From Parelaphostrongylus tenuis (taxonomy: Eukaryota; Nematoda; Chromadorea; Rhabditida; Metastrongylidae), in NCBI GenBank assembly GCA_019055375.1, contig JAHQIW010000451.1, forward strand, positions 310,001 through 374,000: a DNA stretch of 64,000 nt. The letters run 5' to 3'. Numbering within the stretch: the stretch's first letter is position 1; each line of letters begins with the position of its first letter. The notes below the pieces were generated by a model. It saw nothing but the letters and a program-made list of their open reading frames with translations. It did no database searches and had not been told where the DNA came from. The translations under genes were made by a program, and so were the position numbers. This document shows, piece after piece, positions 268 through 63,131 of the stretch.

Positions 268-345
268 CGAGGTTGTTAAGTCAGAGCCGTACACGTTTAT
301 CGGAGGCATAACCTTCTTCATCAGTGGCCCACGCCCCACAGAGCC
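268..345 (-). ncRNA. degenerate hammerhead-ribozyme-like motif
   Basis: On the minus strand CUGAUGA lies at 324-318. An imperfect stem II follows (AGG/CCU with a UUAU-type loop), then GAUAAAC, which is the conserved GAAAC with an inserted U, and then GUGUA. The bases flanking the core can form stem I: GGGCC before CUGAUGA pairs with GGCUC after GUGUA, with one G-U pair. The inserted U and the weak stem II suggest a decayed copy. It is related in layout to the cores at 41.1 and 24.8 kb. Confidence 0.4.
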
Positions 346-5900: not shown

Positions 5901-5939
5901 TCTAACATATGTATTTGTGCAAATTAGAGCTCATCAGAA

Positions 5940-6325
5940 ACCTCGCTTTCATGCGTATCAAACGATTATCACTTGCCCACATCGCCTTCAGAATAGAACT
6001 GTTCAAGAAAGAAATGCGTCTGCTGCTCCAATTCCACTACAAAGTGTATGTCAACGCTTCTGAGGCTCATCGACAAATCTGCAAGACGTCCAGTGACGAA
6101 ATTTGCAATGTTCGTACAGCTCAGGTTGATTTAAGACATTCCGTGAAGAAGGGACGATTGACCGACAAGCCAAGAGAAGGGCGTCACGAGAAGTCGATCG
6201 CCAAGCAGTCGTCAATCTCATTAAAGGAAGATCCATCGATGAGTTGCCGGATGTTGGCTAACGAGTTTGATTGTGATCCGCCGCGGAATCTTTATGCTGC
6301 CGCATATGTGGCTGAATTTTCTTGA
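5940..6325 (+). pseudogene. mariner transposase N-terminal fragment
   Basis: The open frame carries the mariner DNA-binding region in the family order: an EAHRQICK-type helix, a Q-x5-R-x6-GRLTDKPREGR linker resembling the family's SGD-SLED-E-RSGRP segment, then DPSMSCRMLANEFD, matching the family's DP-x-TTRELAEEL helix. The catalytic DD34D domain is absent. After about 6285 the frame leaves the family and ends, so this is a 5' fragment. The first 30 codons are not mariner-like and are probably flanking sequence. Confidence 0.65.
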
Positions 6326-13491: not shown

Positions 13492-24027
<10,536 letters not shown>

Positions 24028-28052: not shown

Positions 28053-28347
28053 GAGCGCATGTGGCGCAGTGGTTAGAGGTGCCCTGCGTCGCACACGAGG
28101 TCAATGGTTCGATCTCGCTCTCATGGCCGACCAAGCCATCCATCCCTCCGGGGTCGGTAAATTGGTACCAGGCAGGTCTCAGACCTGTCTGGGAAGATAA
28201 GCAGCACTGACTCGGTTCAGCGGGAGGCCACCGCGAGTCATTGTAAAGTCCAGATATGCATTCAATCACCTCAAACGAAGTTAGAAATTGAAGTCGAATG
28301 CATGGCGCATCCTAAGGGATTGATCAACGCCGAGAGCTTTATCCTTC
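28053..28347 (+). repeat. tRNA-derived SINE (family A), well preserved
   Basis: The best copy in the window: A box TGGCGCAGTGGTTAGAGGT, B box GGTTCGATCTC, a CCATCCCTCCGGGGTCGG core, and tail ATGCATGGCGCATCC...TTGATCAACGCCGAGAGC. It is a useful reference for the other family A copies. Confidence 0.92.
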
Positions 28348-28974: not shown

Positions 28975-29090
28975 AACAAGCGTCGATAGTGTAACGGGTT
29001 AGAGCACACGCCCTCGGCTTGGGTGAGATGCTGGTTCGAGTCTTGCCTGACGCAAAAATTATGCACATCACTCTACATTATTAGGTAGAT
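28975..29090 (+). repeat. tRNA-derived SINE (family B)
   Basis: A box GATAGTGTAACGGGTTAGAGC and B box GGTTCGAGTC, with the tail TGACGCAAAAATT...CACTCTACATTATT. An inverted partial copy with B box complement GAGTCGAACCC lies at 28737-28806, so the two flank about 170 bp head to head. Confidence 0.65.
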
Positions 29091-30460
29091 CTTCGAACAC
29101 TTCATATGTTGCTTTGGCTTCAGCTTGAGTATCTCGTCTTCTTCATGAATGACAGAGAATCTTATTCGAGACAATTCTTGCAATCCTGGAGATGACCGAG
29201 CTAAGGCGTCCGCAGTTGACTCACTGCCGAAAGTGTTCGGGTGGGATCTCCAGTGCCTACTTTTTTATCTTATTTCGTGATACGTCCCATCACTAACCGC
29301 TGCGTTTCCTCGCCTCTCAATATTCGTCCAGCAATTAATGATCGGAGCACCGTGGCCGAGTGGCTGTGATGCTTGCAGCGGTGCGCCCGGGGTGAATCTC
29401 CCACAACACTCTCCGGCAGTCGACAATGAACGCTCTATAGAACGCCGTAGCTAGGCTAACCTCTAGATTACAAGGAGACATGCTTGATCAGTATTCTACG
29501 ACGTTCAAGAAGAAGGAGAAAAAAAAAGCGAATTGAATGCTAGAAGTGCTGGGATCAATGAAATCAAAAACACACTGCGTATATAAACAAATTAAAAAAA
29601 AGGGGGAGTAGTGATTAGTTCTGGCGTAGCAAACGAATCTCTTGTGAACACCATTCTTTTTTCGATTAGATGGGAAATGTGCCGAAAAAAATCCGTTTGA
29701 AGAGCTTTAAAAAACAGTTCTGAAAAGCTATCAAAGTTAGCCTATCTATGGAAGTTATAGTGTCCACAAGATAGCCAATGGGGTTAGTAATGCGATAAGG
29801 TATTAAATATGATCTATGGCCATCAGCATAGGATTTGTTGAACTTGATGTACAAATAATGTAATTAAAAAACACGAATGACTCAAAAATGCAATCATTCG
29901 TCTGAATAAATAAGCACTTCACGTTCATATTTACTTCAAAACGAAACTGTCGCTATTGAACATTAATGAGATACACTAAAAAAATAGCCCTAAATTCATA
30001 ATTGTATCGAATTTTTGAGTGACGACGTCAAAAATCTAATATGTTTAGAAACTCCGAGAACTTATGTAACATCTAGCACATAGTGACAAAAATACTGTGT
30101 AAAATAAGAAATCTATTTAAGTATACGAAAATCGATTACTTTTGTCGATTACTGGGTGAACACGAGGATGGTGAAAAAGAAATATTTTTGAAAGAGAGAG
30201 AAATAACGGTATTGAGGATAATTGAGGTATTTGAGAAGAGGCTTGAAACAATCTCATAGACTATAAATTGAGTAGTACCTCTATATTCGAATTGTTCTCT
30301 GAGACTCAAAATAAGTTATCGATAAAACAAGCAATTTTTTCTCAATGTTCGCGCTGTGTAACATCTTCGGCGTCGATTCCTTCAGATGCAGGGTACATCT
30401 CCTTGCAAGGAGTTGACTGGATCGAAAGCGCCCCTGACTAAATGACTGAACAGAAAGTCA

Positions 30461-30506
30461 CCGTGCTACTGATGAGGCCGAAAGGCCGAAACAAGTGTAA
30501 GCCCTT
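30461..30506 (+). ncRNA. hammerhead ribozyme core (type I layout)
   Basis: CUGAUGA at 30469-30475 is followed by a perfect stem II, GGCC with a GAAA tetraloop and GGCC (30476-30487). GAAA (30488-30491) follows. A minimal stem III forms from A-U and C-G pairs closing loop AAGU, ending in the triplet GUA (30497-30499). Every invariant core position is present. Stem I is the weak point: with A468 bulged, UCG (467-465) pairs with AGC (500-502), but little pairs beyond that. The window would cut after 30499. Activity is therefore uncertain. Confidence 0.7.
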
Positions 30507-30709
30507 TAGAGGCGCCATAACAGACCTCATGAAAGTCTCAAAATATGATACAAGATTTATATATTGAATGTTTAAAAAAGTGAGGTTATAAAGGACAATC
30601 AATGAGAGTTAATATTTGAGAACAGCCACAATTTTTCTGTTTTTCATTTCTTAAATTATCTTCGGCTGGTAGACAATTATGGAATATCACAATGCCGTCG
30701 TATACTTAC

Positions 30710-31949: not shown

Positions 31950-39918
<7,969 letters not shown>

Positions 39919-40812: not shown

Positions 40813-41099
40813 CTTCTCCTTTCGATGCGATCAATAAATTCGATCGATATTTCTAGCATTTTTTTCGTTGTCGTATAGAGCATTAGTATATCGATTTTGT
40901 TCTCTTAAATGTCGATTCGAATAAAAAAAATTAGCTAATAGATTCAAATGTCAGTTTTTCATCTCAATTTTGTTAGGGTTTTTCCATATTTTTTAGAATA
41001 AAATATCATAAAATACCCTTATTTCGAGTGCTTTGTTTAGACCACGCTCAAATTTCAATAGATCCTTTCATTATTATTTGAGCCAACATGTCATGTGGT

Positions 41100-41169
41100 C
41101 TGGTAAGGGCTCTTGTACAGCCCGAGACACGTGTTTCGTCCTTACAGACTCATCAGCCGAGCAGAACCC
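41100..41169 (-). ncRNA. type I hammerhead ribozyme, complete core
   Basis: Minus strand: CUGAUGA (41156-41150), then stem II GUCU-GUAA-GGAC (41149-41138). GAAA (41137-41134) leads into a two-pair stem III (A-U, C-G) closing loop ACGU. Cleavage triplet GUC follows (41128-41126). Stem I pairs UCGGGC (41125-41120) with GCUCGG (41162-41157) over six contiguous pairs, two of them wobble. Pairing resumes at G118-C164, A116-U166 and C115-G167. All catalytic positions match consensus, so self-cleavage between 41126 and 41125 is predicted. The tiny stem III is typical of retroelement type I hammerheads. The motif lies 1.2 kb upstream of rab-1 on the same strand. Confidence 0.85.
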
Positions 41170-41481
41170 GTCGTCTTTTGATATTTTTGAAGTCAGTTCT
41201 CTCGGGAGCTCTGCTCCCTTACAGAGAGTTATCGAAGACGAACGTTTTACACTCTATGTCAAGTGAAAATTTGAGCTAATCCAGAGTTTTGCGCACTCGA
41301 TTGCTCTTTGGCTGGTATTTGGTAAATAAAGGTATAAGATGATAAAAACACCAGCCAGCGAGCACTGGAGTGCAAAAACACTCTGTGTTAGGTGAAAATT
41401 TCGCTTGACATAGAGTGTAAAGCGTTCGTCTTCGATGACTCTCTGTAAGAGAGTAGAGCTCCCGAGAGAACTGACTATGAA

Positions 41482-41552
41482 ATCTGCCACGTTCTGACGA
41501 GTTTGTAAGAACGAAGCACGTGTATCGGGCTATACAAGAGCCCTTACCAGAC
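41482..41552 (+). ncRNA. decayed mirror copy of the hammerhead
   Basis: CUGACGA (41494-41500) is followed by stem II GUUU-GUAA-GAAC, then GAAG in place of GAAA, C, loop ACGU and GUA. Compared with the copy at 41.1 kb, the third stem II pair changed from C-G to U-A on both sides, a compensatory change. The A15.1 to G change leaves a G-U wobble. Stem I next to the core is mismatched, so it is probably inactive. Confidence 0.7.
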
Positions 41553-41594
41553 CACATGACAAGTTGGCTCAAGTAATAATGAAAGTAAAATATC

Positions 41595-42235
41595 GATTTT
41601 GTTTTATTTTACTTTCTCATTAGCCTTTTTGAGACGCGATGAGCAATGCTTTCGAGGACAACGGTCGTTGAGTACAACTTTGACTAGTTTCAGTGCCATC
41701 TGTGAGGGTATCTTCGAAACTATCAGGTCGTCCTTTCCTAAGTGGGTCTATTCGGTTATAAGAACGCAAATGAAAATCCATCTCATTGGCTGGACCGGAG
41801 CTTTTTACAGGATTATTAGTAACGATTCGAAGCTGGGACTTCTGGCTAGAGCCCCACGTCGCCGGTTTCTCAAAACACCCTTTTACAACGCTGTAAAATC
41901 CACAACATATTCTATCTACTGCGTTGCAAAGAAGCGCTCTTCTCAGCATGTGGGCATAGCGTTGAAATCAGCAGCGATTACGCTATCGAATGATTACTTG
42001 TAGTATAAAGAAAGAGCTCTGTTCGGCGAGAATTATGCACGTTTGCAGCACAAGGAATCTCCCTCTATAACAGCGTGAAGAAAAGGCTTTTTTGAGAACT
42101 CGCGACGTGGGGCTATAGCCTGAAGTCTCAGCTTTCAAATAGTTACTAACACTCATATGAGAAGTTTCTGTCCAGCGAATGAGGTCGACTTTTCAGCTGT
42201 CTCCTCATAACCGCATAGAACTCTTTAAGTTTTCG
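41595..42235. repeat. dispersed repeat, family D (largest copy)
   Basis: Two inverted halves. The left (41640-41900) reads ...AAGCTGGGACTTCTGGCTAG and GGTTTCTCAAAACACCC. The right (42070-42200) reads CTTTTTTGAGAACTCGCGACG, then CTCAGCTTTCAAATAGTTAC. The 134- and 109-codon frames across the left half come from this repeat and have no known domain. Confidence 0.55.
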
Positions 42236-42239
42236 CACT

Positions 42240-43012
42240 AGGGCAGTAAGCACCAAATTTATCTACCGAATGTGATTAAACTGCTTGATTTTGGTATCGC
42301 TCAATTGCGCATATCCTGGTGAACATTTTGGTATACGACGTGCTTATAATTGCTCTAAGATGGGGTTGTCGTGGGAACAAATTTGCTTGCTACTCATGCA
42401 CGAATGGCGCGTAGGGGAAAAGTGAAGTGGCTAGTGAAGCGGCGCGCAAGAATAGAGGAGCTCGAGACGATGATACGGTCGTATAAAGGACGGCGAGGAA
42501 GTGCTTCGCGAAGTTTCGAAGCTGGAGAAAATAGTCTGGAGGTTTAGTCGCGCTCGGATCGCCCACAGGAAATTGATGGTTAAGCTGTCCTTGAGATGAT
42601 CGAAGAGAATTCCTCGATGACATGCCAAATGCTAGCCGAAGAGTTCGATTGTTGATTCAAGATCATCGCTAACATTCTGCATGATCTGCGTAGTGTCTGG
42701 AAGTAGTTAAAGTGAGTGTCACATGAATTGGCCGAAGCCCAGAAGCCGACCTTTTTGTAACCCGTATCATCACCCTGAGCTCCATTAGTTTTGCGCCCCG
42801 CTTCACTAGCATTTTCCCCTACGCGCCAGTCGTGCATGAGTAGCAAGCGATTTTGTTCCCACGACAGCCCCATCTTAGAGCAGTTATAGGCAAGTTGTAT
42901 ACCAAAATGCTCTCAAGAAAATGCGCAATCGAACGATACCGAAATCGTGCAATTTTAATTAATTCTAGTTAATATACTTGGTGCTTACTACTCTAGTGCC
43001 AGAACGTACGGA
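42240..43012. mobile_element. head-to-head mariner 5' ends
   Basis: The plus half (42240-42720) and the minus half (42877-42760) both encode the start of a mariner transposase: the minus copy reads MGLSWEQNRLLLMHDWRVGE, and the plus copy has the same codons with frameshifts. Outer ends are inverted (CAGTAAGCACCAAATTTAT versus TTGGTGCTTACTACTC). No catalytic domain remains. Confidence 0.7.
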
Positions 43013-44699: not shown

Positions 44700-45020
44700 T
44701 TGCTGCTTGGTGACCAATGAATATGTCATGTGGTGTATTTTTTTGGACTGCAATAATTAACTCCTTCCATCTTCCCTCTAATTTGATCCGGAATTATCAC
44801 CAGTTATGGTTCTCCACCATTTGGTTGTACAGATTTTTAAGGCCTATCCCCTACTCTGGACAAGAAATTTTCATAAAGATTGTGAGTAATCAGTTCTCTC
44901 GGGGTACTCTATCCTTACAGAGAGTTCTCGAAGACGTTTACACTCTATGTCAAGTGAATTTTCACCTAACAGAGTGTTGCGCGGTTTTTTTTTGCAAAGA
45001 CCCTTTTGTAACGCTGTAAA
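44700..45020 (+). repeat. fragment of the hammerhead-bearing element
   Basis: AATATGTCATGTGGTGTA (44730) and GTTCTCTCGGGGTACTC to CACTCTATGTCAAGTG (44892-44958) match the arm of the element at 41.1 kb. The hammerhead segment itself has been replaced by unrelated sequence. Confidence 0.55.
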
Positions 45021-45039
45021 AATTGAAATAAAATTGTGT

Positions 45040-45570
45040 CCACATCGGCGGCGCATAAAACTGTTACTTCTCTGGAAGCACGAAAATACATGAGCGTGTA
45101 GAGAAAATTTTCTAGCATCAGAGTCAGACGCTTATTCCGGAATTTCTCTTAAAGCGGATAAACAATTCCTTATCAAATATACCTCACTCAGCGATCGATG
45201 TTCGCGCTGACCCCTCTGCTCGCCCACCCCGCCGCCTGTGAATTTGCCAAAGAACACTTGCTCGCGCGTCTGAATCAGTCTTATTTTCACTTCAGCGTTG
45301 CGGAGAAACGGTCATTTCAGAATATAAGCTCATCATTCGAATCAGTAAATTTAACGTTATCGAACGACTACTAATAGTCTAAAGGAGGAGCTCTATACTG
45401 CGAGAAACATGCACTTGTGAAGCATAATTATTTTTGAATTATCCAGTGTTATGAAAGGGTCTTTTCAACGAACCGGCCACATAGAGCGCTAGCTCGATAT
45501 TTAAGCTTTCGAATGATTACTAACACTCTTTATAAAAATTTCTCGTCCAGCGTAGGAGAGAGGCTTGAAA
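45040..45570. repeat. dispersed repeat, family D
   Basis: Matches 62520-63110 in reverse orientation in part: TTTGCCAAAGAACACTTGCTCG here versus CGAGCAAGTGTTTCTTTGG there. It ends with TTTCGAATGATTACTAACACTC. Confidence 0.6.
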
Positions 45571-45689
45571 ATCTGTGCTACCAAACGCAAAAAGACTCCA
45601 GTTATCATCAGTGTAGTTGGCAATATTTTTTATTAAATAACTGTAATAGTAGTGGTGATCTTTTAAATTTGAATCCAGAGGTGATGAAC

Positions 45690-46156: not shown

Positions 46157-49100
46157 TGTGAATAACAGTAAAAGTGCGGATTTAGTTCGAGAGTCGGGAC
46201 CATATATGGGTGGAACCTCATCCTCTCCGTGGGTGAAAAGCCGCTCGTTGGCGGATTTAGATCATCTAAAGCCGACAGCTGAACAAAGAGCACCCAAAAC
46301 GAGAAGCCGATTAGCTTCAATGGCACATTCGTCGTCAAAACATCTATCTAGGTTACCATTCAATTTTAAGGTTTGTACAGCCATCTAATCATACTAATAC
46401 TGCTATGATAAATCACGCTTAGGGCTCCTTTAGCCCTTTTGGGGCCGTGTACCAACGGCCTCTCCACTTCTATTTGGCAACTCTGAACGATCTGCTCCAT
46501 GTCCTTAGTATCTCTAACCCTAGTGTGCTGCGTCTAACAATGATACGCTGAGGGTCAGGGATGCAGAGGTGGTGTGGACCTCCCAGAGTTGCCACCTAGA
46601 GGTGCAGAGGTCGTGAGTCGACTATTCCAGAAGGGTAGCGCTTTGGTCAGAAAGTACGACCTCTCATCACGTCCTAAGTGAATTCGCAATTCCAACGGGT
46701 TCACAGTTTGTTACTGAACTTTATTCGAAGCACAGAAGCCTTTCATCTCACTTCGCTGGCCATGTTGAACTCATTGTAAAGGCCGAATATCGTTCAATCA
46801 CGTCAGCAATGCGTAATGCAAAGTCGACTGCACGGCATATTCCTGAGCTGAAGATCAAATAAACGCGGAAGGCCACGTAATCCGTTCCACGACAAGCGAT
46901 GGATGGAAGTCATATAGACTAGATCTCCCGAGATGTCAAGTGCACCACAGGATGGCCACAAACCCGATGATCGTATTTCTTCATGAGAAGCCTAGATATG
47001 ATACTAAACGAATCCCTACGGCGAGAGGGATCCACTGGACTACTTTCGCATGCGATACGGAGAAATGATAGTTCTACTGGTGCTCTCCCGAGTTAATCGA
47101 CTATCAACGATGGGTGGTGACAGGTAGTTCATATACAACGTATAGAAGCGCTATTCTCAGTTTTACTCCCCACAAGCTCTCAGCACTTTTCGTCATTCCT
47201 TTTCGTGTTCCATAGCTCATCAGTGAGCCATGCATGTTTCACAGGTCAACAAAACCCCAGAGGAGTTCTTTTATTTCCGTTGTTATGGCGAGAAAGTAGC
47301 CACGAGCAGTTCTCGGGATTCAGCCATGTCAAGTTCTATTCGTAATTGCTCCTGGGTTGCTAGTCCTGCCTGATCTTGCGTGGTGTGCGACTTTTGTCAC
47401 ATATCACCGTCCGACTTCTATAAAATCCTCGCTACTGTCAGGGAGTTCGAATCATGGGCCTGCTTTCCATCTACTTACTTGCGTATGCGTTTGGCTGTTG
47501 CGTATAGATTCGCCTTCATTATGAACATCGCTTGTTGAGTCAGTTTTCATTCGACTGGCAGCGTATTTTGAGCCTTTCGTGGGACTTGTTATGGCACAAT
47601 GAAGTGCTAGACACGTTTTTGGCCTTACAGCCCCTCTCAGTAGCACGGTGACTTTCGTCTGAGCCAGTCCTTTGTAGGGGAGATTCTTCACGTACAGAGG
47701 AACCTCCTTTACAGGGTTATTCGACTTCTGGAGTAACCGTATTGAAGCTTTCTTGCATAGATCGGAAAGAGCGATGTGATCGTAGAAAAACGTGCTGCCT
47801 ATGTCCCGAGCGCAATGGATTGAGAAGCTTGGTGAGCCAGGTGCGAGGTCAAATCAGTTCCCCTCTGCCTCCTCCTCCTCCTCCTCCCTTTTGTTCGTGA
47901 TGGTACAGCATCAGTGATCACTGCGCGCTTTCGCACATTTCCTTGCAATCTCGGGATGGCCAGGCTAGGGCGTTCGTTATTGATTGAGTACTGGGGTTGG
48001 AGATAATACCCGCGTCGAGCATCACTTCCCTCTCGGCTACTGTCTTCCCCCCCCCCCTCTCTCTCTTTCTCTCTCTCTCTGGAGATAACATATATATCAG
48101 ATCTAAATGTTTTTGAACTGTTCAATGGTCTTGCTGAAATAATTTTTGTTCTCGTTTTCAGCGTAAAAGTGGCAGTCGAGACAAAGTGAAGTCATTTCAA
48201 GACCTTATATCTACGTTGTCTGTCCATGATGTGGAGGCGCTTTACAAGGTCAATAAGCTGATCTTGATTTCTCATCTTTAGCTTTTTTCCCTATTTTCAG
48301 ATATATCCTCTTCTCTTTCAGATATTTCTACTTCTTCCTTACTCGATAATCAAAACAATGTCAATCAAAAATAATAGAAGAAAAAGGAGAAAAAGTTCTA
48401 AAAAAATGCTCGTAACTTTTTTTGGGTTTGGGCATTTCTTGTGTTTTTGGGCTCATTTGAACGCCCGTCTTCTCCCGCGTTGTTTGGTATATTATTGATC
48501 TACTTCCTTGATGCGTTGATGATGATGATGCTGATGCATTTTATGCGTTCACTTGCCACCGCTCCATTTGAACCTAACAGCCATTCGTGCATCATCAATA
48601 ATCTATTTCCTCGCTTGTTAGCTCCATCTTGAAATAAGTGGATAAATTATATACCAATCAACGTGGGAAAAGACGGGTTTTCAAATGAGCCCAAAGACAC
48701 AGAAAATGGCTGGCACCTAAAAAAGTCATAAGCATTTTCTCAAAACTTTTTCCCAAACTATTAGATTCCCTTGCCGGTGCTAACGCTGCTTGTTACGTTA
48801 TCTTTAGGAATTCGACAGCTATTTTTGTGTTGACGGTGCTTTGCATGGCGCTTTTGCGATGCTAATATGATATTCAATAAAGTCGGCAATCGATAGATCA
48901 ACAATATGAGTCGATATAGTGGTCATAATCTCATGGTTTTTCTATAGTGTTAACCATTTTTATCATCTCTTTCTATTCATAGGAACTTGAGACCTCGCGG
49001 ATCTTGTCTGTGCTACAAAGTGAAGCTGATTCTGCAAGACCAACGGTTTTAAGTATCGGAGAGCAACTATATTCAAGCACCAACAAGGATTTCATACTTG

Positions 49101-51051
49101 AGATTGATGTGAAACAACTTCATATTAGATTATTCGTTCCATAAGTTTTGGCAATACGCATCAAATTTATTAAGCAGAAGTAATCAGAAACGCATGATCT
49201 TGGTCTTGTTCAATCATGCATTTTCTTGCAAACATTTTGCTACCCAATTTACCATCACCTTAAGATAGAGCTGTGTTGGGAGCAAATTCGCTAGGTACTC
49301 CTGCACGAATGGCGCTTACGGGAAGATACTTGTGAAGCGGCGCAAGATTAATAGAGTTTTCCTGTGGACGGTGCGAGCTCGACGGGTCCTCCAGACTGTT
49401 CTCTCCAGCTTTGAATTTCGCAAACCACTTCCTAGCCGCCCTTTCTGCAACCGCTTCATTGTCCAAGCTCCATTAATCTTGCCCACCGCTTTGCTGCAAT
49501 TCGTGCATGAATAGCCAGCGAATTTGTTCCCACGACAACTCCATCTGAAATCAAGTATAGGCAAGTTTTATACGAAGTTTTTCCCAAGAATATGCGCAAT
49601 TGAACGATACCAAAATCATACAATTTCAATCAGTTCTGGTTAATAAATTCGGTGTTTATTGCCCGAGTGCCAAAACTTGTGGAACGACCTATTTTATCGA
49701 AGAATTATGCTCTAAAAAAGTTTTCATTGTTAAGGGTGTTTCATATCCTGTTCATCGACGCCTACTCATCTCCCGATGTGATTCAGTGAGAGATTTAGTA
49801 GTAGACAACACAACTACCCCCAAGTTGATGATATCATTTCCTTATGCAAAGCATTTCAGTCATCAGGAAGTGTGGTGAGTTGCAGGTTGTCTTCAATGGT
49901 TTCTTGTTTTGTACGGGTTTTAAACTTTAAGTGAGCCCAGTGATGGTAAAGATGTGGGTAGTCATATGGTCTTTAAAAATGTATTAGGACTATTTCAGCT
50001 CATTTATTCGATATTTGTACACCGATCAATGGGATGGTGATGGTGTCGAAGTTCTGGAATTCTTTCGTGAATGGTTTGGATGTAGACGAAGTTTGTTAGT
50101 CGATCTAAAGAAAGCTAAAGATAATTCGCTTCAAGATGGAGATTTAACAATTGCACTGACCTCAGCGGTTCCTCTGAACGACGTGTCAATTAAATGTAAG
50201 TGCTTCAGCAAACCTGTATATCTTTTTTACAGGATTTGGTGTTATAAAAGTTTGATTTTCATCTACAATGAGCTCCATTAGAAAGCATGTTGCATCACTT
50301 TTATTTTTTTCAGCGCATCTGCCTGACTACAAAATTCGGTGTGACTCTGCAATCGTATCAGCTAGAAGTGTGGTCTTCCAAAGGCTCCTCAAGCATTTTG
50401 GGAACAAAAATCAAATTGTTCTCGATGAAGCTCTACTTCCACGTGGATTTGCTCCTGTTGTCATGCATTTTCTGTACACCGATGAACTGGATTTCTCTAT
50501 GGTTTGTTTCTTACTTGTGATTGAGCGATCTCAGTGCATATTTTCCTTATAAGTGTTGGGAGAATACAATGGATAAATCGGAATGATACATTCACTCGAA
50601 GAGTATTTATATATACATACGTAGATATGCACATTTATGTATATATGTCTATACATATGTATAGTTTTGAGAAAACGGGAACGAGGTAGTGGAATGATTG
50701 GTGATACATTTTTTCAGGAAGGAAGGTGATAAGTAATTCGTTTGTTAATCCTTTCCCTCAATACTTTCTTGTAGTTAGTCAGCAAGCGTCTTAGGAAATG
50801 CCTTGCTCTACTACCCTCAAGATTGTCAAGGGTGATGTCTCCGTCAGTGTTCTACGACATATATAGAGAAGACGCACCCTCAAACTTCCCTTGAAAACGT
50901 GAAATGAGCGACGACCTATGTGGGAACGGATTCGAAGGAACGGATTGAATACACGGCATGCTGAGATCCGTATAGTAAATTGCGATAGTGGGTCTTCTAA
51001 GGGAAAGTAATAATTAAACAAGTTTATTCATACATATATATATTACATATT

Positions 51052-51492: not shown

Positions 51493-54400
51493 ATGTATAA
51501 TGTACATACATATATATATATGTATATAATGTATAATGTACATATATATATATATATATATATGTACATTTGTATTACGTATGCATGTACATGATATGTA
51601 TGTGTACATACATGCATAGGTATATACACGTATATATACGTACATATATACATACATATATGCGAATGTATACGTAAATGTATGCATATACACACATATA
51701 TATGTATATACAGTGTATATACGTATGTATTGGGTAGTAATCGGTTATGAAGGGACAAAGAAGAGAAGGGAATAAACTGATCTCATTCGCTGGAGAAGAA
51801 CTTTTCGTAGGAGTACTAGTAACAATTCGAAAGCTGTCACTTCAGGCCACAGCCCCACGTCCCCGGTTCTCAAAGAACCCTTTTCCAAGGTTGCTACAGA
51901 CGGAGATTCTTTTGCTTTGGAAACGCTCATATATCTCACCGGACAGAGCTCTTTCTTTGGGCTATTAGTAATCATTCGATAGCTCAACTGAGTCTCATTC
52001 CAACGCTGTGCTTCTATATTGAAGAGACCGTTTCTTTGAAACGCAGCAGGTAAAATAAGTTGAATTCCTATATGCGATCAAAGAGCTCTCTGACCAATTC
52101 ACATGCCTGTGCTTGAGGCGGTGACGTGAATTGCTGACGCGTTACCTCTGTACGCGTTATATGCACGAAAAATCGATGGTCGTCGCGTCATAGAACGTGG
52201 CCGCCTCACACGCGAGCACGTGAATCCAAAGACTTCGCAGATGGGAATTCAACTCGTTTTACGTATTGCATTGCAGATAAATTGTCGTTTCGGGACATAA
52301 GCACAGCGTTGGAATCATCGTTTGATTATACGTTCAAAATTCATGCATATATTCAGACAACAAACAGCAGCAACCATTCTTCAAAATACATCTCATCATT
52401 ATCCACCACTTTTTACCATCGGTCCGCCAGGTTTCGCATCTGATCGAAGTACCATTCCTTCGGCTTTGCATCAAAGAACTCTAGACATGCTTCTTCAACT
52501 TCATCGAAAGACTCAATTCGGTGATTTTGCAAGAAGTGTGGCATTGATCGGAAAAGGCCGTATTCTGATGGAGCAACGTCCGGGCTATAGGGTGGATGAA
52601 ATAGAATCCTAACTCCTACCAATTCCTCAAACTCTGCCTTGGTCTTTTGGCCGTGTGTGGTTGTGCGTTGTTTTGCATCAACAAACGTTTTTGTTCCCTG
52701 GACAACTCCATTCTGCAACAGATAAGACAAATTATATATCAATAGATGCCCAGGAACTAGACCTCGCAGTTGATATGAAAATCACACATAGTTCATACGA
52801 ACACACGGCATTCCCATCCAAACGATGGAAATTTTTTTCCAACCTAATATTTGCTTCTGCAACGCAAAAATCTTCTTCTGTAGCAACGTCAAAAAAAGGA
52901 TTTTTCGAAAGCCGGTGACGTGGGGCTGTAGTCTGAATTCTCAGCTTTCGAATGGTTACTAGCACTCCTATGGAAACTTTCTGTCCAGCGAATGAAATCG
53001 GTTTTTCATTTGTCTCGTCATAACTGGAAATGAACCTATATGTGTATACACATGTGCATGCATGTGTATATATACGTGCAGTTACATACAATTGTACACG
53101 TATATATGTATATATATGTATTATATATATGTGTAAATATGTATATACGGATGTGTATACATATTCATATGAAATGCGAGGAGCGCATGTGGCGTAGTGG
53201 TGAGAGGTGCCCTAGGACACCGTGGTCGATGATTCGATCGCGATCCCAAGGCTCGTCATACTAGTCTAGGAGGATAGAAGCACCGACTTGATACATCGGT
53301 AGCCCAGCGCTGGTCATTGTGATTGCCAGGTGTGGATTCAGTTGCGTCTGAGGTGCTTGTTGAAGACGAATGCATGACGCATTTCTTGGGGATTGATCAA
53401 CATTGAGAGCTTTGTTCTTTTTTTATACAAGTAATTTATTTATTGTTCACGGCATTATATCGCTACCACTTCAGATATGCGATACATCTATTTCACAGTC
53501 TTCGCTCTCTGAAGCTCGTGCTATTGTAGCTGGTCGGAGTCCTCATTCACCTCTTCATAGAGCGATTCAACTTATCCACATTGCAAAATTTTTTTCGCTT
53601 AACAAACTTGTGCAGTGTGAGTGTGTGCCTAACTGACCTGGAAATTTGCACTTCTCCTATCATTTAAGTCCTTAATTTAGTGTGCGAAGATGTTATCGTT
53701 TCTTCTCTGTGTCAGGAAAGTTGTGTATCCATCCTTAGTTGGGCGTCAGACGGCGGCTCTCAGTATGTTGCACAGTGTGCTCAGAGGTTCGTCCTTATCT
53801 TCTTATCATTCATTAGGATCGATTTTGAGGTTCGATTTACTACTGTTTCATTTTCGCATAGGATTCATAAATCTTGAAGAAGTGATTGAATTATTCTGAC
53901 AAATTCGAGTACCGAGGATGCGTATTTTGAAGCTAATGTTTAATGGTTCTCTTTCAGTTATCTTGAGTCTGAGTTCTCTCAAATCGCATCTTCTCACTGT
54001 TTGTTTGACGTTTCTTTGGAAAGCTTGGTAAAATGTGCTCAAAGTCAATTTACTCAGGTTTGTCGAAAGCTTTCCCACAAGATTTTTAGTATCTATTAGT
54101 TTCCTTCTGTGCATGGAAAGGCGAGAAGTTTGCCTAATGTCGCAGCAGTGATGTCCGCTAAAAACAATGTTTTGAAGTTTTCATCCAAGCTGTATAGTGT
54201 GCGTCATATCGTGTTACCCTCTGAGTACCGGGTGTCCTATTTTGAGTAGGCCGATCGCCTTTGAGTAGACCGATCGCCGCGTCGCGTCTCGGTTCATTAG
54301 AGCTTACTGTGGCTGGTGCACAACCCTATTCAAGTCTTGTGCTTATTTTTTAGACTTTTTTAAGTGTTCTTAATTCTACTTGACTTGATCGAATGTTCTT

Positions 54401-57400
54401 GCAACGTCTACGATCAATAGTAATACAGTACTGTACATGAAATTTATCTTCAATAGCAATGTACTATTGATAATTACTTTTCACAATTATATACACCTAC
54501 TTCAAGAAAATGATTTGCAGTGTACAAATACATTGTGATACAAATTTTGCGCGCAGTGCTAAATATATTTTTTGCAACATTTAATTGTTCTAATGATTTT
54601 TTTTTTTTGAAGCTCTGACGTTGTGTTAACTGAAAATGCTTTTTTGAAGTCAAATATTATTCTATCTTTTACTGATCCCTCAATCACTTCTAGTGACGGT
54701 AAAAGTCTAATATTCCATTAGGAAGCTATAACGTCATGATACGAGAGCACCTCGCCAGCCGGCCGACCGTGCCGCGTGCCAGGCGAAACATCGGCGTGGT
54801 ACCCAGTTATCAAGAAAGTGTGTAGTATACACTGAACTGTTTAGTCACGTGATATTGAGATATCTTTTCATTGAGGCCATTGGAAATGGATCTTCGTTAT
54901 TCAGCCTTTTACCACAGTAATTTGAAAAATTAGTGATTTGCTCTAGATGTTGAGAGATATTTTTGTATCATAACATATCTATGCAGTTTCCAGGCAACTG
55001 AAGTTGAAATCTTGGAGGCGGTCATTCGATGGGGAGAACACGAGTTATTACGTCGAATGGAGGTAATAGCACTCTTTGACATTGTACGACACTAACGAAA
55101 AAGTGAGCGCGTGTGGCGCAGTGTTTGTAGATGCTCTCCGACATACACGTAGTCACGGTCGATGCACATACACATACACACATCCAGACTCAAGACTCAC
55201 AAAGCCTTCCATTTCTCCGAGTTGGTGACTTGGTACCAGACTTTTCTGAGAGCACAGCAACAATGACTTGAAACATCGGTGGGCCCGCGAGTTGTTGTTA
55301 AGGCCGGATATAGATTCAGTCTCTTAAGCGATACTAGATGAAAACGAGTTTATGGAGTATCTTCAGAAGTCCAATCAACTCCGAGAAATTTATCTTTTTA
55401 ACCTTTCAGAGAACTAGTATTTTTTTCTAATTTCTAGGAAAGGGAACCTAACGTCGTGGCTGATACGACACATTCAATCAGTCGACGTGGTATAAAAAGG
55501 GGTGATCTCAGTGGTACAGAATTACGAGCAATTCTTGCTCCGATAACTTCGCATCTTCGCATCGATTATGTTTTGCCACCGTTTCATCAGGTTGGTGCCC
55601 TTTCATCTCGCTTGGTGCTGCTGTATGTGGTTCTCAGTGAATAGGAATTTTGACACCTTTTTGGCTTATTCTAATAAATCACAGAGTCTGAATGCCGCGT
55701 ATTGTCGAGGAATACTCGATCGAGCTCCGCTGCGTTCGGACCTTGTCTGTCCGTCAACGTCGGAGATCAATCCTGATATTCATTGGTTTCGACCAGAACA
55801 AGACGCACCGGGTCCCCGCTACTATATCCCGTATTACAAGGTCGGTCTTTTTCTTTACATTGCGCACAGTATTCTTCTACTTAAAAACTGCCGAAAATAT
55901 ATCCGTAGCGATAGATAATTTGCAGTTTTTGTGAGAGGTAACCCACTTAAATTCCTCTCTTTTTCTGAATATTTCATTTTTCTTCAACTTCCTTTTCTTA
56001 TCATTGCTTTTTGTCGTTTTAGCTAGACTCTGAGGCGTTCAAACGCAAATGCTACCTCTCTTGTCTGTTTTGAGTTTTGAGAAAGATCATGTTCAGCCTC
56101 TGAATAGCTACTTTGTATCCAAAATCGCTATCAGTTTTGACTCTTTTAAAAACAGGTGAATGTGACATTCACGCTGCTGCTTTGAAGTACCATTTTCAGA
56201 TTACAAAGGAACAATTGCGCAGTTTTGGTGAGCGCTGTGAAAGTTATGTAGCCTATACGCCTTTAACCACCAACTGCACTGTTGAAGTTGTATTCGCTAA
56301 TCTCTGGCCTGATTTATTGTGCGAAGAGAAGTTTTGTGAGGTAATTTCGTTATCATATGACATGGTTTATTCTCGTTCATTACATGTTTTCGGCTTTCAT
56401 TGTTACTAATTCAGCGCGAATTAATTTTTTCCATCAACTTTCGTTATCCGGTGTCTCGTTAACGTCGAGAAACAAGTGGCCAGGGCGAGGCACCAGTAAA
56501 GCTTCACTTCTTTCCTATTGTAAAAGGGGTTGGCACACTGGGTTCTTCTCGCTGTAAACATTTGTTGAGTATCGTATACTTCTTCGAAGCTTTTGGGCTT
56601 TTAGATGGAGAAGCACATGGGAAACAAGTGGGAGTCGCGTCCAATAAATAAGTTACTACTTTTCTCTTCAAAAAAGACTGGCAAGCTACATGTGAAATCT
56701 TAGCGGGCACACTGAGCTCAGTATGCTATACGTTGAGTAAAGAAAGGTTAACACAGTAAAGAAGACGGCTTCTCATTTTTCCCATATGGAGAGTGTAGCT
56801 CCAATCTTTTGCTCTGAGCAAATACCTCTCACCTTCAATCACCTGCTTTCTAGACATTGTAGCGAATGCACTGGATTATACAATGTACTTATCGAAAAAG
56901 TATAAGCTTTCTTCATTCCACAGCCATTATGTCCCAATTTCGTAGAGAACAGGCGTTGTATAGCTTTGTCTTTGGTGATTAGGATTGTTGGGCTTAATAG
57001 CAATCTCAATAATATAACCTTCGTTTCTAGTTCTTCAAAAAACTTGACTCTAGTGAATAGTTGGGGTTCCGTCAACTTCTGAAACCTAAGCCTAAACCTT
57101 AGTGTGCTCTCATAGTTTCCCATCTAAAGAAATCAATTCAAAAAATGGTACTGTTCTGTTATGGCGGCGCACTTGAAGCCGTCGGTAAAAACGTATTTTT
57201 TACGTTTGCAAAACGCTTCTGTAGTTTATCGATAGCTCAAATCAAGTGAATTTCAGTGGCATGTTTAAGTTCTTAAATAGATAATTTTTGGCGCCTTGCC
57301 AGTCAATGTAAGATTTTGTTTTTCATTCGAAGTTTTCTCACTGCATAAAAATTCTGCTGTAATGAACTTCTTTTAAATCGATAGATAGGGAAAATTTTTC

Positions 57401-58403
57401 CGATTACAATGGTATATTTGGCTTTTGGAAAGGACTTTATCGAGCTTTGTAATGACCGTACGAATGACTAGAAATGCTCACTGAGTGTGAAACCCAATAT
57501 TCTTTCGATCATTGCAAAGCTCGAAGAAGTCCTTTCCGAGAGCCAAATATACCATTATGATCGAATAGAATTTCTCTATCTAGCAATTAGAGAAGTTCAT
57601 TACAACAAAATTTTTATGCAGTGAGAAATTTCAAATGAGTAACATAATCCTATTTTGACTGGTACGGCGCCAAAAAAAGCTATTTGAGATATCAAACATG
57701 CCATTGAAATTCACTTGATTTGAGCTATCGACAAATTACAGAAACGTTTTGCAAAAGCAAGAAATACGTCTTTACCGAAGGCCTCAAGTGGCGCCTCCAT
57801 AATAGAAGAGTGCCCAAAGAATTCGTAAAAAATTGATAGGACCCCAACTCTCTACAAGGGCCATGAAATCGCTACATAACAGTTTTTAAGTTGCTTTGTA
57901 AAATCTGTCAAAGTTCTTCTCGGAGATCTTGCAGTTCCTGAATTCTTTGAGTAACTGTAATTGAAATTTGTTCAGCAGTCATCCTAAAGCCGGTTTCAAA
58001 TCTTGATTGTCAAACGGTGTTTAGATTCGCACCAAGATCATAACTGCGATTGAAAACGCGGATCGTCAATACCATATTCGTTTATTTCCGCGTCTTTTTC
58101 ATCGTCGAATGGCAATTCAGCTGGTATATTTGGCTTAAATTCTCCTCAGTATTGAAGTTGTCAGCACATATAATAGTACCGTTTTCTCATTCATTGTTTT
58201 AGATTGCATTGCGAGTTTTGAGAACATTGGAAGTTGATCCTGATTGCGTACGCGTCTGCCTCCTCAGTGATTCTCAGAATGAACTAACTACTCCAGAAGA
58301 TGAGGAATATGATGATCCATCTGTTCTTGCTCGACGAGGTCAACACTGGCCGGATATTATGACCGTGAAGAGAATGGAAGTCGTGGCGCAATCGTATGAA
58401 TAG
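46157..58403 (+). CDS. btbd7: BTBD7-like double-BTB protein
   Basis: Fourteen exons: 46157-46370, 48162-48248, 48983-49108, 49735-49874, 49999-50195, 50314-50501, 53475-53616, 53681-53786, 53958-54057, 54994-55062, 55438-55590, 55685-55840, 56200-56340, 58203-58403. All are GT-AG and in frame. From ATG 46206 it encodes 656 aa. BTBD7 signatures occur in order: VHDVEALYK; first BTB (SYPVHRRLLISRC, SFIRYLYTDQWD); second BTB (DSAIVSARSVVFQRLLKHF, VVMHFLYTDELDF); BACK-like helices; IRWGEHELLRRMEEREPNVV; RGIKRGDL. Human BTBD7 is about 1,130 aa, so the proline-rich tail is absent. In vertebrates BTBD7 controls cell-adhesion remodelling during branching; the worm role is inferred only. The MGGTSSS start suits N-myristoylation. 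The exon 1 acceptor (CTTCTCACAG) may be trans-spliced. Confidence 0.93.
46400..48161. other. intron 1 of the BTBD7-like gene
   Basis: GC-richer than its surroundings. It holds a possible worn family A SINE tail at 46740-46860, an unrecognised 79-codon minus frame at 47452-47691, and a C-run followed by (CT)n at 48047-48082. I see no exon. Confidence 0.5.
48397..48760. mobile_element. mariner-derived MITE (copy 2)
   Basis: Terminal repeats are GTTCTAAAAAAATGCTCGTA (48402) and the inverse of AAAAGTCATAAGCATTTTCTC (48723; about 75% matching). The interior is shared with 43370-43775. It lies in intron 2 of the BTBD7-like gene. Confidence 0.65.
49135..49686 (-). mobile_element. mariner element with intact-looking TIRs, internally deleted
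   Basis: Terminal inverted repeats of 19 bp differ at one position: CGTTCCATAAGTTTTGGCA (49135-49153) and the inverse of TGCCAAAACTTGTGGAACG (49668-49686). Between them the minus strand encodes only the N-terminal DNA-binding part (AVAERAARKWFAKFKAGENS and LEDPSSSHRP) with frame breaks, and an outer frame starting like the copy at 42.8 kb. The element lies in intron 3 of the BTBD7-like gene, 48 bases before exon 4. Confidence 0.85.
51020..51180. repeat. TA/TATG microsatellite
   Basis: Pure (TA)n at about 51050-51094, then TACATA-type units. Intron 6 of the BTBD7-like gene. Confidence 0.9.
51230..51390. repeat. dispersed repeat, family C
   Basis: CAGCACTCTCCGTCAAGC, ACGAACACCCTGC, GGCTGGCTATCCTTCGAGATT and GCGAAGAAGCGAATCGAAT parallel the copies at 29.4 and 33.4 kb. 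Confidence 0.5.
51445..51735. repeat. TA/TATG/TACA microsatellite
   Basis: A (TA)n core with extended TATG and TACATA units. False Tyr-Ile frames on both strands. Intron 6 of the BTBD7-like gene. Confidence 0.95.
51770..52345. repeat. dispersed repeat, family D
   Basis: AATTCGAAAGCTGTCACTTC, CCACAGCCCCACGTCCCCGG and AATCATTCGATAGCTCAA match the family. A related inverted piece at 52840-53030 (GACGTGGGGCTGTAGTCTG, TTTCGAATGGTTACTAGCAC) lies on the other side of a mariner fragment. The mariner therefore appears nested between two opposed family D arms. Confidence 0.55.
52370..52742 (-). pseudogene. mariner transposase catalytic C-terminus
   Basis: An open minus-strand frame contains ILFHPPYSPDVAPSEYGLFR, then a F-DEVEEACLEFF helix, AKPKEWYFDQMRNLADRW, a stop, and after it KVVDNDEMYFEEW, the expected mariner end. 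The position of the third catalytic Asp (family APSDY) is Glu here. One stop before the last 13 codons and the missing N-terminus make it a relic. Confidence 0.85.
53035..53165. repeat. TATG microsatellite
   Basis: Degenerate TATG/CATG/TATA units in intron 6 of the BTBD7-like gene. Confidence 0.85.
53178..53417 (+). repeat. tRNA-derived SINE (family A)
   Basis: A box GGCGTAGTGGTGAGAGGTG, tail ATGCATGACGCATTTC and GATCAACATTGAGAGC. It is in sense orientation in intron 6 of the BTBD7-like gene and ends 57 bases before exon 7. Confidence 0.8.
55105..55390 (+). repeat. tRNA-derived SINE (family A), diverged
   Basis: Starts GAGCGCGTGTGGCGCAGTG. The B box is obscured by a CACATACACA insertion. 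Core TTCTCCGAGTTGGTGACTTG. Sense orientation in intron 10 of the BTBD7-like gene. Confidence 0.7.
57162..57811. mobile_element. 650-bp palindromic MITE, family F
   Basis: The two halves (57162-57470 and 57500-57811) are near-complete inverted copies. The ends are TGGCGGCGCACTTGAAG and, inverted, TGGAGGCGCCACTTGAGG, flanked by TA on both sides, consistent with a TA target duplication. Inside are GAAACGCTTCTG/CAGAAACG, TCAAATCAAGTGAATTTCA and its inverse, and GCCAAATATACCAT. It lies in the last intron of the BTBD7-like gene. No ORF. Confidence 0.85.
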
Positions 58404-61400: not shown

Positions 61401-63131
61401 TTACTTTTTTTTTTGAATCCAAAAGCGTATCGCACGCTCTGCTGTCCTAATTCTCGACATCTCGGCGCACAGCACGATATGATCTCGATTTTTTGGCTTA
61501 AGCTGGAGCTTCGGGCTCTCTATCATTTTCGTGGTACGATATTCTTGGTGTTGCTCGTTACTGTGCGTCCGATAGCGACAGTGAACCAGTGTACGCCTGC
61601 TTAGGTACGACTGAATTTTCGCAGCAAACTTTAAAGGCAAAAAGAATTTTAGTGTTGAAGAGGTGTGCCGCGGGAATTCTTCATCCTCCTCGGTTATGTT
61701 AAAAGCTATCAAAGTTGCTCTTTTCTTCTTCTTTGTTTCTAGATAAGTCATCAATTTAGATCATCGCCATGTTCTCACCATTGGGACATATTTACCTCCT
61801 TCAACACGAAAACAACTCGGTTGGTCATGAACGGACTTTCACTCTCACTTTTTAATCGCGTCATATCTTATTTCAGTTTCGCATAGCAAATAGTTATATG
61901 TTATCGCCTTGTCGAACCACTCGCATTCTGTTAATGTGAAATGTAGCGTAGTGGTTAGTGATACTGTTTCCAGAAGCAAAAGAAGTAAGCAAAGCGTTGT
62001 GATCCTGTCTCCAACACCCGCTTCATCAACTAAGTGGGAAAACCCTAGCTCTGTCACCTTCAAGATTGCAGAGAGATTCGTTTTGTCCAGCCATTCGCAT
62101 TCACTGGGGCGACAAAATTCTTAAGCAGCAGCTGAAGCGACTCGTGAAATATTCTAAGGTCTTTGTTGAGGATGAATAGGAGGTAATAAGCTGAATGCAA
62201 GAAGCATTGTGTTCCGCACAGTAAACTGGGGTGATGGGTTGATTTAATGTATAAATATAAATATAAACATGGCTATTTATATACCTATGTATATGTATAC
62301 GTATATATGTATATGTAAATATATGTATATAAATATATATATATATATATATGTATACATATACATATACACATACATATGTGTAGGTACTTTTTCGTTT
62401 GGTAGCAAGATTTTTCAACCCAGTCCTCTGTGTTTGGCAAAAAGTTCATATAAAGAGTGTTACTAATAACTCGAAATTTCAAATCTCAAGCTAGCGCTGT
62501 ACCTGGCCGGCTTTTTCAAAAGCTCTTTTATGATACTCCGAAAATCAAAATAAAATTATGTTTTACACGCACAGATTTCTCGCAGTACAGAGCTTTTTAA
62601 GACTATTACTAATCGTTCGATAGTGTAAAATTTACCGATTCCAACGCTGTGCTTATATCCTAAAAAACCGTTTCTCTGCAACTCAGCTAGGAAAATAAGA
62701 TCGATTTCCATGCACGAGCAAGTGTTTCTTTGGCCAATCCACGGCCGGTGGGGTGGCTGAAAGAGGGCGGATCAGCGCGAATATCTACCGATGGCGCCTA
62801 AGTGAGGTGTTTTGATAAGGAATTCTTTCTACGCTTTGGAGGAAACTCCGGATTTCACATTTGACTCTTACACTAAATTTTTTCTACGCGTACATGGGCA
62901 TTTTATGCTTCCAGCGAAGTTATAATTGAATTGCACGGCCATGTGAAATATAATTTATTTGTAAATTTAAAATGTTATAAAAGAGTTTTCTCAAAAACCG
63001 GCCAAGAACAGCGCTAGATTGAGATTTAAGCTTTCGGATGATTAATAACACTCTTTATGAAAACTTCTTGTCCAGCGTAGGGGATAGGCTTGAGAATATG
63101 TGCTACCCACCGGAAAAGAGCCATATACATT

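Follow-up and report, generated by a model that had tools for sequence, protein, structure and literature searches.

By its sequence, the 63-nt stretch called L41 here is a genuine hammerhead ribozyme of type I, with predicted activity, on the minus strand of a 64-kb window, which is the whole stretch of DNA that we analysed. Four related copies are found in this window, at 41.1, 41.5, 30.5 and 47.6 kb; L41 is the best preserved, and it is the one copy of the four in which every feature is retained. An earlier note on this DNA had proposed a nematode ribozyme that is probably repeat-borne, and both points are supported here. We lean towards the view that L41 is the hammerhead of a small dispersed, apparently non-coding, non-autonomous repeat family of the retrozyme/SINE type in a strongylid nematode. 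Most likely, L41 belongs to a mobile repeat and does not serve as a switch of the adjacent gene.

The hammerhead on the minus strand at 41 kb

All the invariant positions of a type I hammerhead are present between 41169 and 41107 on the minus strand (63 nt), in the order CUGAUGA, stem II, GAAA, stem III, GUC and stem I. The core CUGANGA, the GAAA and the NUH site lie in a three-way junction, and the three helices are arranged with stem I open and loops II and III closed. Stem II has 4 bp (GUCU/GGAC, with one U-G pair) and a GUAA loop, and stem III has 2 bp (A-U and C-G) and an ACGU loop. Stem I consists of six contiguous pairs, two of which are G-U wobbles, followed by a one-sided 6-nt bulge, UGUACA (41114..41119, minus), and then by 7 further pairs. 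The earlier note had described on this strand a type I hammerhead with every core position and a minimal stem III, which can be read directly in L41; its six contiguous pairs in stem I are also there, but the bulge and the seven additional pairs had been missed. On the basis of the secondary structure, the bulge is a candidate partner of loop II, and presumably UGUACA and the GUAA loop suit a tertiary contact between loop I and loop II.

The self-cleavage site predicted from hammerhead chemistry falls between 41126 and 41125 (minus), exactly where the earlier note had put it, C17 being at the computed position 41126 and the next base at 41125. Just beside it, the palindrome ACACGUGU (41127..41134, minus) forms in the monomer the 2-bp stem III with its 4-nt loop, and in two ribozymes brought together it could form an 8-bp stem III; the 8-bp duplex of this sequence amounts to -10.3 kcal/mol.

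The Rfam model Hammerhead_1 (RF00163) aligns to L41 from the first to the last position with 31.1 bits, which corresponds to E = 7.5e-06 in a search of 501 bases and to E = 0.00096 in the 64-kb window. The check with covariance models suggested in the earlier note thus had a divided outcome: L41 is significant by its E-value but stays under the curated gathering score of 34, which is a reporting threshold and not a structural feature. Because its score is under this threshold, L41 is absent from the default Rfam scan, in which the sole match is a tRNA (28980-29054, plus strand, 31.9 bits, over the gathering score).

Related copies in the window

The copy nearest to L41, R41 (41488..41530, plus), has the core CUGACGA, a G in place of A15.1, a GUA site and only one of the six stem I pairs. 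Its stem II (GUUU/GAAC) is intact and is preserved despite a change from C-G to U-A. Hammerhead_1 gives this copy 16.8 bits (E = 0.3 in a search of 151 bases). The dispersed copy x30 (30463..30505, plus) came from a sensitive self-comparison of the window and displays CUGAUGA, a stem II GGCC/GGCC, GAAA, stem III and a GUA site. Its core is complete, unlike those of R41, with A15.1 changed to G, and of y47; its stem I, of at most 3 bp, is displaced by a bulged A. The fourth copy, y47 (47604..47646, minus), was then found via x30. Its conserved core is broken and its stem I (GUGCUA/UAGCAC) is fully paired; the stem I sequence differs between L41 and y47, yet all six positions are paired in both.

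The homology between x30 and y47 extends over about 180 nt (30426..30603 on the plus strand, 47685-47504 on the minus strand on the y47 side), with 127 identical columns out of 188 and E = 3e-15, and that between L41 and x30 covers 106 columns at 68%. Direct blast matches connect three of the six pairs of copies (L41-R41, L41-x30 and x30-y47), and none was obtained at E 0.05 for L41-y47, R41-x30 and R41-y47. When the Rfam search was run over the window at E ≤ 5, none of R41, x30 and y47 was reported. The module common to the copies measures about 105 to 180 nt and comprises the ribozyme and a tail of about 45 to 60 nt and more; the GC content of the copy pieces is 39-47%. Family copies are present in both orientations, single or inverted, and the repeat listing of the window contains no head-to-tail tandem array at any of the four.

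We trained a covariance model on L41, R41 and x30, leaving y47 out, and it recovered y47 with 25.5 bits and an E-value of 1.7e-6 under a rough calibration. Its next matches have E = 0.023 (41094-41141, plus strand, the antisense of L41) and then E = 0.024, the latter being a weak hammerhead-like match of 14.1 bits at 284-330 (minus), where the flank profile finds nothing at E ≤ 50. With a profile of the four copies, each member is matched at 2e-24 or better, which is a circular result since the profile was made from them, and the next best match has E = 1.3; on the reversed window, the best E-value is 5.6. Stem II pairs in 12 of the 12 cells over L41, R41 and x30, and both sides have changed at two of its four pairs. 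When the structure is taken as a whole, covariation among these three sequences does not exceed that of shuffles, 69 of 500 reaching the score and 100 of 500 the percentage paired.

A part played by y47 in a protein gene was rejected, its open frame having neither a relative (six candidates, none at E ≤ 0.001) nor a Pfam match. Exact and degenerate family patterns gave 0 matches in viral contigs and in bacterial and archaeal genomes, as expected for a nematode repeat.

The inverted repeat at 41 kb and competing explanations

L41 and R41 are both contained in a 521-bp inverted repeat, or foldback (41065..41585), L41 in the left arm and R41, its decayed mirror copy, in the right arm, and both are directed outward. 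Neither this repeat nor the three other copies appear in the earlier note. The arms share 206 of 249 aligned bases. As RNA, the complete element forms a single, nearly continuous hairpin of -343 kcal/mol, in which the formation of the hammerhead costs 44 kcal/mol; in RNA lacking the antisense arm the cost is 6.3 kcal/mol for the 63-mer, 9.3 for its own arm and 6.9 for the arm with the centre, all of these being equilibrium values and not those of co-transcriptional folding. When RNA crosses the full element in the direction of rab-1, the antisense arm is made first. In an RNA that spans the full element, the arms would zip together and turn the ribozyme off, and in RNA begun inside the element and running outward the ribozyme could fold. 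Since the hammerhead costs 44 kcal/mol in the full-element RNA, this model suggests that read-through RNA entering from the right is probably not cut by the ribozyme; by the same model, RNA started within the element might be cut.

The inner segment of the left arm, unit B (41193..41294), of about 100 nt, is found again in inverted orientation at 41377-41477, and stands alone without a ribozyme at 44887-44982. Because unit B occurs alone at this last place and is absent beside x30 and y47 (no match at E ≤ 50), the 41-kb element looks composite. It looks like a ribozyme copy that was duplicated in inverted orientation and fused to a further piece of repeat, unit B. A reading of unit B as another hammerhead was rejected: CGAUGA and a hairpin are visible by eye, but it is absent from the 16 matches of the family model up to E 5. 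A large dispersed repeat pair is found at 44805-45592 and 62391-63125; at the place where the first member has unit B, the second carries a different sequence that is shorter.

With outer ends that match and a near-continuous hairpin over its whole length, the inverted repeat could itself be a mobile foldback or MITE-like DNA element that captured a hammerhead, moved by a transposase acting in trans, with the ribozymes as passengers or transcript trimmers. Terminal inverted repeats, a feature of MITE and foldback elements, are indeed present, but in the 41-kb copy only, and several other long inverted repeats occur in the window (many of the 25 pairs listed, out of 254, have AT-repeat arms). 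Nevertheless, two of the four copies, x30 and y47, have no inverted partner and lack unit B, the window holds only one palindromic copy, and the ends of the element bear no target-site duplication beyond chance, their longest match being of 4 bases, which is usual at random places. We therefore regard this explanation as unlikely.

We are equally doubtful that L41 is what remains of a terminal repeat from a Penelope-like retroelement (PLE), a class whose minimal hammerheads of type I may work as dimers. The very short stem III would agree with this origin, since the hammerheads of PLEs are described, in the passages of PMC7761336 devoted to them, as minimal type I motifs in tandem that may self-cleave as dimers. 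The same passages present forms without helix III or loop-loop contacts; in L41, by contrast, stem I is extended and includes a bulge that could make such a contact. In addition, no reverse transcriptase or GIY-YIG match was obtained in the 10 scanned of the 15 ORFs of at least 120 amino acids, and the window contains no tandem pair.

We give a low probability to a mobile palindromic foldback with one outward hammerhead per arm that would work as a direction-dependent ribozyme, off in crossing RNA and freed in outward RNA started from the centre. If true, such a foldback would cleave its transcripts close to their end and spare the host transcripts that contain it.

It is also improbable that L41 is a chance or fully dead motif devoid of function. 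Three of the four copies are damaged, and the hammerhead is not the minimum-energy fold of the 63-mer (-15.5 vs -19.7 kcal/mol), as this explanation would have it. An 81-nt stretch containing L41 is no stabler than its shuffles (z = 0.46, 132 of 200 being at least as stable), and two 63-mers left to co-fold freely adopt a structure other than a double hammerhead. Folding-energy calculations disregard the core and loop contacts that stabilise hammerheads. Against chance stand the recovery of y47 by a model made without it, the pairing of stem II in three diverged copies, and the rate in random windows generated by a first-order Markov model, where the full motif (at least 6 bp in stem I, 4 in stem II and 2 in stem III) was found 0 times in 100 windows. 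A looser motif (at least 3 bp in stems I and II) was found 3 times in 100 random windows and once in the real one. A core-only motif without stem I, devised post hoc with the copies known and with G permitted at 15.1, occurs 3 times in the real window, against a single occurrence in each of 13 random windows out of 300 and none in the remaining 287.

Using a Rab1 query sequence, we located rab-1-like exons at 36358..31953 (minus) and a second Rab gene at 23907..15200, whose best protein match (86% identity) is from Dictyocaulus viviparus, a strongylid nematode (Strongyloidea); it is on this match that we base the assignment of the host to the strongylids. The ribozyme is on the same strand as rab-1 and upstream of it, and the earlier note had considered that rab-1 read-through RNA could be cut; we rejected a regulation of rab-1 through cutting of read-through or 5' RNA as extremely improbable, given that the first recognised exon is 4.7 kb away, that family copies lie elsewhere in both orientations and that the upstream antisense arm would mask the ribozyme in read-through RNA by 44 kcal/mol.

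Other repeats are scattered in the window. A family of about 300 bp has at least six copies (28053-28346, 32717-33016, 39234-39516, 37905-38200, 34264-34563 and 18737-19042), of which the first two are 94% alike and those at 32.7 and 34.3 kb sit between rab-1 exons. A long inverted repeat at 57147-57814 is self-complementary over 675 columns at 81%, and an inverted-repeat element of about 780 bp at 42226-43008, near the ribozyme element, has relatives at 49134-49691. Two weak matches below cut-off, to a DDE_3 transposase (52416-52781, minus, E = 0.016) and to a Mos1 HTH domain (5906-6322, plus, E = 0.0053), are possible mariner remnants.

Proposed mode of action and relation to known ribozyme-bearing repeats

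Returning to the dispersed retrozyme/SINE-type repeat that we prefer, we infer that it is, or descends from, a non-autonomous retroelement mobilised by the reverse transcriptase of another element. This reading has to contend with the lack of a head-to-tail array, with 41-kb element ends that bear no clear target-site duplication, with the three copy pairs that blast does not connect, with the three copies that Rfam passes over, with the damage to all copies except L41, with a covariation no better than that of shuffles, and with a minimum-energy fold other than the hammerhead. In the repeat RNA, self-cutting by the ribozyme between 41126 and 41125 would produce ends with a 2',3'-cyclic phosphate and a 5'-OH and would release a unit-length or circularisable RNA. 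With a stem III of 2 bp, cutting would be slow for the ribozyme alone and faster as a dimer, because the stem III region reads as a palindrome of 8 nt. By analogy, the weak stem III together with this palindrome fits the dimer cutting described for hammerheads with a weak or short helix III in passages of PMC7229834 and PMC7761336, although two 63-mers co-folded freely do not form a double hammerhead. Also by analogy, we would describe the repeat family as working like a retrozyme and do not file it as one, since the head-to-tail array is absent from the window.

Among the titles and abstracts that our searches of an open-access library listed, we found no report of natural nematode hammerheads or of hammerheads in DNA transposons, and nematodes and Caenorhabditis are absent, by a term search, from the main text of the hammerhead survey PMC3088659. 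With one intact member, this multi-copy family allows hammerhead-bearing repeats of roundworms to be tested directly, and its inverted layout leads one to ask how a ribozyme can act, or be silenced, within its own antisense hairpin.

Compared with the Hammerhead_1 family (RF00163), L41 is full-length, keeps every core position, has loops II and III closed and stem I open, but it differs by its score under the gathering threshold, by a stem I with two wobbles and by a stem III of 2 bp. Animal retrozymes, as described in the relevant part of PMC7229834, are repeats of 150-450 bp with a GC content below 50% that contain type I hammerheads; they occur in several invertebrate phyla and are recorded in rotifers, flatworms, annelids, crustaceans, insects and others. 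According to this description, the present family resembles the metazoan non-LTR retrozymes by its type I hammerhead, its GC content under 50%, its invertebrate host and the x30-y47 homology of about 180 nt, which falls within their size range; it differs from them in that their usual head-to-tail tandem array is lacking in the window, where one pair is inverted (PMC7229834). The minimal hammerheads of PLEs and Terminons, from the account in PMC7761336, have in common with L41 the type I fold, an almost missing stem III and a possible dimer, but L41 has a long stem I with a bulge, no tandem partner and no PLE gene in the ORFs scanned. Finally, the W elements of Schistosoma, compared here by their description in part of PMC8490949, are satellite-like repeats of a flatworm, but they resemble the present family in being dispersed helminth repeats with a type I hammerhead and an extremely short stem III, some copies of which have mutated conserved nucleotides.
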